This document shows, in pieces, positions 16,529 through 36,030 of a stretch of 45,357 nucleotides of DNA (its first letter is position 1; every line of letters starts with the position of its first letter). The position numbers and the translations under genes were made by a program. The notes below the pieces were generated by a model, which saw nothing but the letters and a program-made list of their open reading frames with translations, did no database searches and was not told the DNA's origin. The DNA is taken from the NCBI GenBank assembly GCA_947631605.1, contig CANRMC010000004.1:1-45357 (forward strand). Reading direction: 5' to 3'. Origin of the DNA: an uncultured Lachnospiraceae bacterium. GTDB taxonomy: Bacteria; Bacillota; Clostridia; Lachnospirales; Lachnospiraceae.

Positions 16529-17002
16529 ATGAACGATAAAGATTTTGCTTCGATAACAGGCATGATAATCAGAATTGAAAATCAGGAGAGCTGTTGCAGA
16601 AGAATGCTGACGCTCCGTACCGATAATGGGATCGTAAATATTATGGTCCAATCGGAAACGATCGTGATAGACAGCGTACAGCTTCGGATCGGTATGCGGA
16701 TCGCTGCATTCTATAACAGGAATCAGCCGATGGTTCTGATATTCCCGCCGCAGCATAATGCTCAGTATGTGATAGCGCTTCAGGGAGACGAGCAGGTGCT
16801 CCTGTCATATTTCGACCGCAGCCTGACGGCATCCGACCAGGCATTGCAGCTCAATCTTTCACGCAATACGGAAATCACAACCATTAATGGGCAGAATGTC
16901 ACCTGCAATCTGGGCGGTCACACACTTTTAGTCTGCTACTCCGTAACTACCAGAAGCATACCGCCGCAAACCACCCCGCGTAAGATCGTCCTAATATGCT
17001 GA
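16529..17002 (+). CDS. hypothetical protein, 157 residues
   Basis: I do not recognise this protein. It is preceded by AAAAAAGGG at a normal distance and is a plausible cytoplasmic protein with no signal peptide or membrane segment. The first 75 residues are rich in alternating hydrophobic beta-like stretches (MIIRIE, RMLTLRTDNGIVNIMV, MRIAAFYN, MVLIFPP), which looks like a small beta-barrel such as an OB-type fold; this is an impression, not a match. The C-terminal half contains a second run of beta-like segments ending in PPQTTPRKIVLIC. It has two neighbouring cysteines at residues 22-23. It lies downstream of the CarD-family gene and may share its transcript. Its stop codon lies inside the first of three direct repeats. 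Confidence 0.65.
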   Translation: MNDKDFASITGMIIRIENQESCCRRMLTLRTDNGIVNIMVQSETIVIDSVQLRIGMRIAAFYNRNQPMVLIFPPQHNAQYVIALQGDEQVLLSYFDRSLTASDQALQLNLSRNTEITTINGQNVTCNLGGHTLLVCYSVTTRSIPPQTTPRKIVLIC

Positions 17003-17098
17003 GATGTAAACAGACAGAAAAAATAGTTTTTATCTGCTGAGAAGTAAACAGAAAAAATAGTCCTTATCTGCTGAAAAGTAAAAAGACAGGAAAAATAG
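16997..17098 (+). repeat. three imperfect direct repeats after the 157-residue gene
   Basis: Three units beginning TGCTGA and containing GTAAA, then GAAAAAATAG and TTATC, run head to tail: 16997-17034 (38 bases), 17035-17068 (34) and 17069-17098 (30, shortened at its end). The first unit overlaps the stop codon of the preceding gene. The units differ by small deletions and substitutions, so they are old or still under slippage. Confidence 0.85.
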
Positions 17099-17140
17099 AA
17101 AGTTTGTTTTGACTAAAATGCATTGTTTCATGCCTCACAG

Positions 17141-17288
17141 GTATTGGCTGGGCTGGGGCTCATGAAATTCAGGACTGCGGAAATGAGACTCCGTAAGAAG
17201 CGGCACCCGATTATGTGCCGCTTCTTACATGTTGGAGGCTCATTGGAGCCGAACAGTCCTGTTGAATGAGCCCCAGCCCAGACAATAC
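17141..17288. repeat. nested 148-bp palindrome (long imperfect inverted repeat)
   Basis: The two ends, 17141-17163 and 17266-17288, are reverse complements over 23 bases with one mismatch. Inside them, in matching order, lie three more complementary pairs: 17170-17177 with 17254-17261 (8 bp, perfect), 17182-17192 with 17234-17244 (11 bp, one mismatch) and 17193-17206 with 17215-17228 (14 bp, perfect), closing on an eight-base loop. Short unpaired bulges separate the blocks, giving one rod-like hairpin with about 55 base pairs. There is no T-run after it, so it is not a standard terminator. It might be a structured RNA, a small non-autonomous mobile element or a chromosomal cruciform site; I cannot decide. 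No protein gene is convincing in 17003-17417. Confidence 0.9.
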
Positions 17289-17382
17289 CGTCATCATAAT
17301 CATAATCACCATAACCAACCTCACCTTCATCACATAATGTCACATATTACAGTATATCGCCGCAGATATTCCCATAAAAACC

Positions 17383-17411
17383 TTTACAAATAAAATAAAA
17401 TCGCATATAAT
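17383..17411 (+). promoter_or_regulatory. sigma-A promoter of the T-box/aspS operon
   Basis: TTTACA at 17383-17388 and a perfect TATAAT at 17406-17411 are 17 bases apart. Transcription would begin near 17418, at the head of the T-box leader. Confidence 0.8.
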
Positions 17412-17417
17412 ACACCT

Positions 17418-17700
17418 AATTGCAGTATCCTATCTGTAAACATATCATAAAGGCTATGAAAGAGACTGCCTGTATAAAGACATTACAGGGAGCAGGGCGC
17501 CACGGACTGAGAGCCTCTGCATGACACCATACAAAGCGGAACACTCCGGAGCCGGTCAGTTGAAGCCGGATTTAAGGTTTAGGCTGATCCGCAGGTCTGC
17601 GTTACAGACATTTGAGAGGAAGCAGAGATGCTTCAATGCGGGTGGTACCGCGGATAACTGATGATCCGTCCCGAGACTGTATACAGTCTTGGGATTTTTT
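17418..17700 (+). promoter_or_regulatory. T-box riboswitch leader of aspS-gatCAB
   Basis: A leader of about 280 bases that reads uncharged tRNA and controls transcription of the synthetase and amidotransferase genes. The diagnostic T-box sequence GCGGGTGGTACCGCGG is at 17638-17653, in the antiterminator, and pairs with the NCCA end of uncharged tRNA. A GAGAGCC segment and a GGAACAC segment upstream fit the stem I region. The intrinsic terminator follows at 17670-17700. I could not place the specifier codon with certainty: GAC (Asp) is at 17523-17525, and GAAC at 17539-17542 holds both GAA (Glu) and AAC (Asn). The GAAC could be only the conserved structural motif of T-boxes. The element is very likely; its tRNA identity is open. 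Confidence 0.93.
17670..17700 (+). terminator. intrinsic terminator of the T-box leader
   Basis: CCCGAGACTG at 17670-17679 pairs with CAGTCTTGGG at 17684-17693 (one G-U pair) around a TATA loop, followed by ATTTTTTATTTT. This is the off-state hairpin of the T-box. Confidence 0.92.
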
Positions 17701-23975: not shown

Positions 23976-24380
23976 ATGAAACAGATGATTAGTATTTTGG
24001 ACGAGAATCTGGAGTATGTGGAACAGGAGTGTTTATTTGGAGAGGATATCATATATGTGAAGTCGAAGCTTACGAATGGTATATGTCCCTACTGCGGGAA
24101 AATGTCAAACAGAACACATAGTACCTATGATAAAAGGTATTTAAAATTCTTTGCCGGTGATAAGGAAGTTCGTGTGATTCTTATGAATCGTAAACTATTC
24201 TGTGATAATCAGATGTGTACACATACTACTTTTGCCCAGAGAATCCCTGAGAAACCGGATTTCGAGGAGAGAAAAGCGCGTTTTGAAGACGCTTATAGAA
24301 GGCACATCAAGAGTATCGGCTTAAAAGTTGGCTAGTTCTTTGCTTCAGGATAAAATGAGTGGAAACAGTTGGGCAGAAAA
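23976..24380 (+). pseudogene. decayed ISL3-family transposase, N-terminal fragment
   Basis: The first 119 codons (23976-24335) encode the zinc-ribbon N-terminus of an ISL3-family transposase: CPYCGKMSNRTHSTYDKRYLKFF followed by CDNQMCTHTTFAQRIPE, with the paired CxxC and CxxxxC cysteines, then RKARFEDAYRRHIKSIG. The frame then stops, and a neighbouring frame carries ASSLLQDKMSGNSWA for about a dozen codons, which looks like a continuation after a frameshift. The DDE catalytic domain, about three quarters of a full transposase, is missing. A ribosome site (GGGGAG) precedes the ATG. I saw no clear terminal inverted repeats at either side. It is a remnant of an insertion sequence and can hardly be active. 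Confidence 0.75.
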
Positions 24381-35814: not shown

Positions 35815-36030
35815 ATGATTGAAGCGGATCATTGTGATAAATATCTGGGATGTGCGATACCTCCTATGATTTTGAACCTACATTTATTTTGACGGGATTT
35901 CAATATTTACAACCGGATGACATGCCTCCTTGCGTGGACCTCAGAAAGTTGTATGCGAGCACCCACCTAGCATGGCTAGGACTCAAAAAGTAGGAGCCGG
36001 CATTTTGGATATTTATTACGATTCGCTTTA
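35815..36030 (+). ncRNA. ssrS: 6S RNA
   Basis: A probable 6S RNA, which binds the sigma-A RNA polymerase holoenzyme like an open promoter and changes its use during slow growth. The two ends of the region pair into a long rod: bases from about 35823 (AAGCG, then GTGATAAATATC) face GATATTTATTAC and TCGCTT at 36008-36028, with G-U pairs tolerated. Further in, CCTCCTA near 35860 faces TAGGAG near 35990, and the segments TTTTGAACCTAC, GGATGACATGCCTCC, GGACTCAAAAAGTAGG and GCCGGCAT are as I recall for clostridial 6S RNAs. No open reading frame is credible. A promoter lies just upstream. Exact ends are approximate. I know of no other RNA family that fits. Confidence 0.75.

Follow-up and report, generated by a model that had tools for sequence, protein, structure and literature searches.

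A solitary tagged palindrome upstream of aspS in a Lachnospiraceae genome and a dispersed family of palindromic elements with similar ends, size and shape

The aspS spacer and its hairpin

The window, as we call the whole stretch of 45,357 nucleotides analysed here, is one contig of the 2.34-Mb draft genome (189 contigs) of an uncultured Lachnospiraceae bacterium. The spacer upstream of aspS (Table 1) follows a 157-aa gene for which no Pfam match was found, and the tandem repeat at the end of that gene probably arose by duplication of its last part. A long hairpin begins 138 nt after the stop codon of this gene and ends 94 bp upstream of the aspS promoter. The T-box leader beyond the promoter is real. 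Since promoter and T-box are both located downstream of the hairpin, the hairpin lies outside the aspS leader, and a role as part of that leader is ruled out by the downstream start of the leader transcript. A first, sequence-only reading of this DNA had described the spacer before the T-box as otherwise gene-free; it was right as to the T-box and had missed the tandem repeat.

Table 1 Features of the spacer upstream of aspS (positions in the window)
Feature	Position	Strand	Remarks
157-aa gene	16529–17002	+	function unassigned
Tandem repeat	16988–17098		3 copies of 34–37 bp; stop codon of the preceding gene falls within the first copy
Left boundary tag ACA	17137–17139	+	followed by closing G of arm; tag found on most dispersed elements of the genome
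Outer left arm	17140–17163		pairs with 17266–17289; 7 + 16 bp, one mismatch between
Second helix, left side (CAGGACTG CGG)	17170–17180		pairs with 17249–17261
Third helix, left side (AATGAG, CTCC)	17182–17192		pairs with 17234–17244
Innermost stem	17193–17228		perfect 14 bp, loop at 17207–17214; terminator-like shape, no T-run
Third helix, right side	17234–17244		partner of 17182–17192
Second helix, right side	17249–17261		partner of 17170–17180
Outer right arm	17266–17289		partner of 17140–17163
Right boundary tag GTC	17290–17292	+	preceded by closing C of arm; as on most dispersed elements
aspS promoter	17383–17411	+	sigma-70-like, TTTACA-17-TATAAT; downstream of hairpin
aspS T-box leader	17447–17676	+	E = 1.6e-19; score just below the Rfam gathering score

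Folded as the + strand, the inverted repeat at 17140–17289 forms a single rod without branches and has a fold energy of −98 kcal/mol; its 58 pairs are Watson–Crick throughout, with not a single G-U. From the outside inwards its helices measure 7 + 16, 8 + 3, 6 + 4 and 14 bp, closed by an 8-nt loop. The segment 17121–17310 has a minimum free energy of −99 kcal/mol against −53.3 ± 4.0 kcal/mol for 200 dinucleotide shuffles (z = −11.3), none of which reaches the native value, and this is the strongest fold anywhere in the 45-kb window. The outer arms (24 bp) are 96% complementary, and over the whole length of the hairpin the arms are 75% identical, that is, they are not identical copies. The motif GGCTCAT/ATGAGCC is present in both arms. 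The hairpin is thereby confirmed as real and very stable. The sequence-only description, with four complementary blocks of about 55 pairs, was right to within one base pair; the arms reach one pair beyond the limits it gave.

The innermost stem is GC-rich and lies 3′ of a gene, as in intrinsic terminators, but it differs from them in having no T-run after it and three further helices nested around it. Because the T-run is missing, as the earlier reading had noted, the hairpin is not an intrinsic terminator, and no terminator with a T-run was found anywhere in the interval from the 157-aa gene to the aspS T-box. No promoter was found in front of the hairpin. Rfam 15 has no family that matches it at the gathering score; the one match that overlaps the rod, of miRNA shape and due to chance, has 24.1 bits, where the gathering score is 90. 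Elsewhere in the window, 6S RNA (RF00013) is found at 35839–36015 with 78.3 bits.

It had also been argued that a long palindrome is normally unstable, so that its retention would suggest either function or recent arrival. The risk of instability rises with longer and more similar arms and with shorter spacers (review, PMC7999016). The hairpin is a quasipalindrome, with ~ 100 bp between its outer arms and mismatches in its interior, and its persistence alone therefore implies neither function nor recent arrival, which weakens the argument.

We found the hairpin to be single-copy in its own genome, all of which was covered both by a DNA similarity search and by a search with a hairpin-derived model. 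In 397 Lachnospiraceae genomes neither DNA nor covariance searches gave a homologue; this is the outcome of the search that the sequence-only reading had proposed. In plasmids, in phages and in 61 relatives, only short low-complexity matches were obtained at the DNA level, the covariance model of this hairpin alone matched elsewhere only short, terminator-sized structures, and the paired ends had no match in IMG/VR. In relatives with an AspS 80–85% identical, gatA often still follows aspS and the T-box often still precedes it, whereas the region beyond the T-box, further upstream, is different and no such hairpin is found upstream of aspS. Orthologues of the 157-aa gene were located at 48 loci, nearly all with an identity of 58% or less and one a short partial match; none of them lies next to aspS, and none has the hairpin. 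The hairpin is thus lineage-specific and is not conserved with either neighbouring gene. Its single copy, the lack of homologues and the lack of conservation with either neighbour argue against a conserved cis-regulatory RNA, so that the conserved structured RNA considered in the earlier reading finds no support. A 119-aa reading frame in the window at 23976–24335 is a candidate transposase remnant, the start of which, by our impression of the sequence, may resemble the N-terminus of an ISL3-type transposase.

A dispersed family of palindromic elements in Lachnospiraceae

A scan of stretches of the same genome for strong hairpins found 11 dispersed palindromic elements (L127–L137) of 147–159 nt, mostly 157 nt. 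Most of the 11 have the boundary ACA/G...C/GTC, the stroke separating tag and arm, which is common but not universal in the family. The architecture is that of a long outer stem with copy-specific complementary arms and a conserved core inside. Between the copies of this genome the core is 93% identical and the left arms only 57%. Compensatory change is seen at 17 of 31 pairs of the outer stem, and the covariation score of the whole family structure is 0.25, compared with 0.04–0.06 for slid controls. G-U pairs are rare in the outer arms (11 of ~ 325). The core can be written CGCCGGTNCTTAG(Y)GA - hairpin - GA(R)CTTAGTACCGCTGCG ... AGCG(GNRA)GCG, with a loop of GNRA type, and of its 18 predicted pairs 12 have both partners changed, with C-G to U-A changes among them below the tetraloop. 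The conserved core is thus of GNRA/CTTAG type.

A covariance model of the copies in this genome (R2) has matches in at least 98 of the 397 Lachnospiraceae genomes, many of which contain five or more copies, and a model of the core only (R3) has matches in at least 11 of 391 Clostridia genomes, every one of them Lachnospiraceae; no sampled genome of other clostridial families carries the family. The family is defined by these models, which were built in this analysis. For the large genome sets the scoring used strict filters and limited the number of candidates per genome, so the counts are lower bounds. Rfam gave no match to the dispersed elements at the loci tested and no published description was found in the literature searched. 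Taken alone the window hairpin merely adds to the lineage-specific palindromes known from intergenic DNA; pursuing it brought to light a family present in about a quarter of the sampled genomes of the Lachnospiraceae, a major gut family.

The core is conserved across genera, whereas copies within one genome differ in their arms, with the pairing kept. In genome G394 (L243–L248) the cores of seven copies are ~ 85% identical and the outer ends, GCC/GGC by the tags, are identical, while the arms differ (mean identity 56%) and yet are paired. The divergence seen there contrasts with genomes such as G357 (L237–L241), in which the arms of the copies are nearly identical. The family as a whole is drawn from loci L127–L137, L208–L236 and L237–L256 and from alignments A2, A5 and A6. 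How the arms arise and stay complementary can be tested directly, and so can the question of what recognises the core. At one site compared between sister species the spacer measures 50 nt in one and 266 nt, with an element, in the other, which is consistent with gain or loss of an element, the spacers being too diverged to place breakpoints. The sister species G002, which has no standard copies, carries a palindrome that is related to the family and contains two hairpins of the form CTTAG..CTTAG (L257, about 1150–1233); the class is thus broader than our models.

RAYT/Y1 transposase was considered as the mobiliser of the family and rejected, as it is present in 11 of 20 element-rich and equally in 11 of 20 element-poor genomes and is missing from several of the richest. 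The possibility that the arms are spacers taken from elsewhere was likewise dropped, there being no second match in half of the own genome, and two arm sequences had no exact match in IMG/VR.

Comparison of the window hairpin with the family

The window element is 157 nt from tag to tag (17136–17292), with flanks ACA/G and C/GTC, so that ACAG is read at 17137–17140 and CGTC at 17289–17292. Family elements measure ~ 150–160 nt between tags and have an outer stem of ~ 20 bp or more, and the 157 nt and 24-bp outer stem of the window hairpin fall within these sizes. The long rod and the intergenic position are also common to both. In 1.85 Mb (79%) of its own genome, no other strong spaced inverted repeat has the tags, family members apart. 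A six-base tag match is expected by chance in ~ 1 in 4096 repeats, and such repeats number only about six; the comparison is post hoc. In 0.6 Mb of relatives we found one more tagged palindrome with a different core (L060, 9329–9509). Repeats of AGTAAACAG upstream were discarded as a marker of the element, the motif being no more frequent than background (9 in 1.18 Mb).

The hairpin differs from the family in being single-copy and in its core. It contains neither the CGCCGGTNCTTAG..CTTAGTACCGCTGCG core nor the GNRA-capped hairpin, nhmmer found no primary-sequence similarity to the family core, and model R3 had no match in it even with the filters off. With R2 it scores 24.8 bits, where unrelated long hairpins score 20–28 and true members 47–57 in the same control set; membership by R2 score was dropped because the unrelated controls scored the same. 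Lacking the core, the window hairpin is not filed as a member, and it shares with the family only ends, size and shape. The suggestion that it is a mobile element has therefore fared unevenly: an element with many copies of this sequence gets no support and the core is absent, while the dispersed palindromes have the same tags, length and architecture, which is indirect support.

Among known systems, the REPs tagged with GTAG/CGTC are also intergenic palindromes with a short end tag and share the CGTC motif with the window hairpin; they are multi-copy, 20–40 bp long with stems of 8–9 bp, and those with CGTC occur mainly in alphaproteobacteria (Di Nocera 2013, PMC3733652). The window hairpin, with ~ 150 bp and one copy, is outside both the size and the copy number of such REPs.

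Origin and role of the hairpin

We give about an even chance to the reading that the hairpin is an orphan tagged palindromic element, of the general kind of the family and without its core, that is now only a passive 3′-UTR hairpin. It would be a solitary, lineage-specific DNA element of ~ 157 bp with an interior of its own, which most likely arrived or arose as an insertion into the DNA that separates the CarD-like/157-aa operon from aspS, with mobilisation presumably in trans. No target duplication is visible in the flanks CCTCACA and GTCATCA. At its present site we propose no dedicated gene-regulatory role for it. A stable rod in a 3′ UTR protects RNA from 3′ exonucleases and can be cut by RNase III. 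Read-through from the CarD-like operon would place the rod of −98 kcal/mol in the 3′ UTR, where it may slow 3′ exonucleases and could be a substrate of RNase III. A more specific proposal, which we make tentatively and think somewhat doubtful, is that the hairpin is an orphan of an undescribed tagged Lachnospiraceae class, its core lost or exchanged, and that what is kept or moved is a unit defined by its ends and palindromy, not by the core; in the same tentative proposal, the class would have a structurally conserved, RNA-like core held by a copy-variable but still complementary stem.

The 58 perfect pairs without a broken helix and the z of −11 could also reflect selection on the pairing of a functional RNA of this lineage, acting as 3′-UTR stabiliser, weak or factor-assisted terminator or small RNA. 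The hairpin lies 3′ of an operon that has no other terminator before the aspS promoter, and its innermost stem resembles that of a terminator, but there is neither a T-run nor a promoter in front of it, Rfam offers no plausible match, and such an RNA would have left no homologue in 397 genomes and no trace beside either neighbour's orthologues. We consider it rather unlikely. That the hairpin is a MITE, or the remnant of an unrelated transposon, is improbable: it is like MITEs in being short, non-coding, intergenic and missing from relatives, with 24-bp terminal inverted repeats 96% complementary, and unlike them in having neither a target duplication nor sister copies; plasmids and phages contain nothing like it, IMG/VR nothing with its paired ends, and the rod runs along its whole length rather than at the ends alone.

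Arms that are Watson–Crick throughout would also fit selection on the DNA, as at a site for a structure-specific protein in recombination or replication or as an operator, and the occurrence of GGCTCAT/ATGAGCC in both arms agrees with this. However, no associated protein was identified, and G-U pairs are likewise rare in the outer arms of the family, so their absence from the window hairpin is not significant; a protein site is very improbable. Bacterial quasipalindromes are corrected at the DNA level by template switching, and the absence of G-U fits such correction, though without being significant. As to chance or an assembly artefact, the genome is a draft of 189 contigs, but the z value, the arms that are not copies of each other (75% identity) and the position inside a 45-kb contig make this explanation scarcely credible. 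The orphan tagged element thus remains our preferred reading.

Two other inverted repeats were met in the course of the work. An imperfect one of 30 nt around 78 bp lies between two genes (L116, 9528–9665) and has neither tags nor core. The other is a perfect inverted repeat of 20 bp around ~ 97 bp by a serine-recombinase-like gene (L164, 3903–4039 and 4065–4661), and is likely a phase-variable promoter that can invert, close to a gene for a membrane protein.
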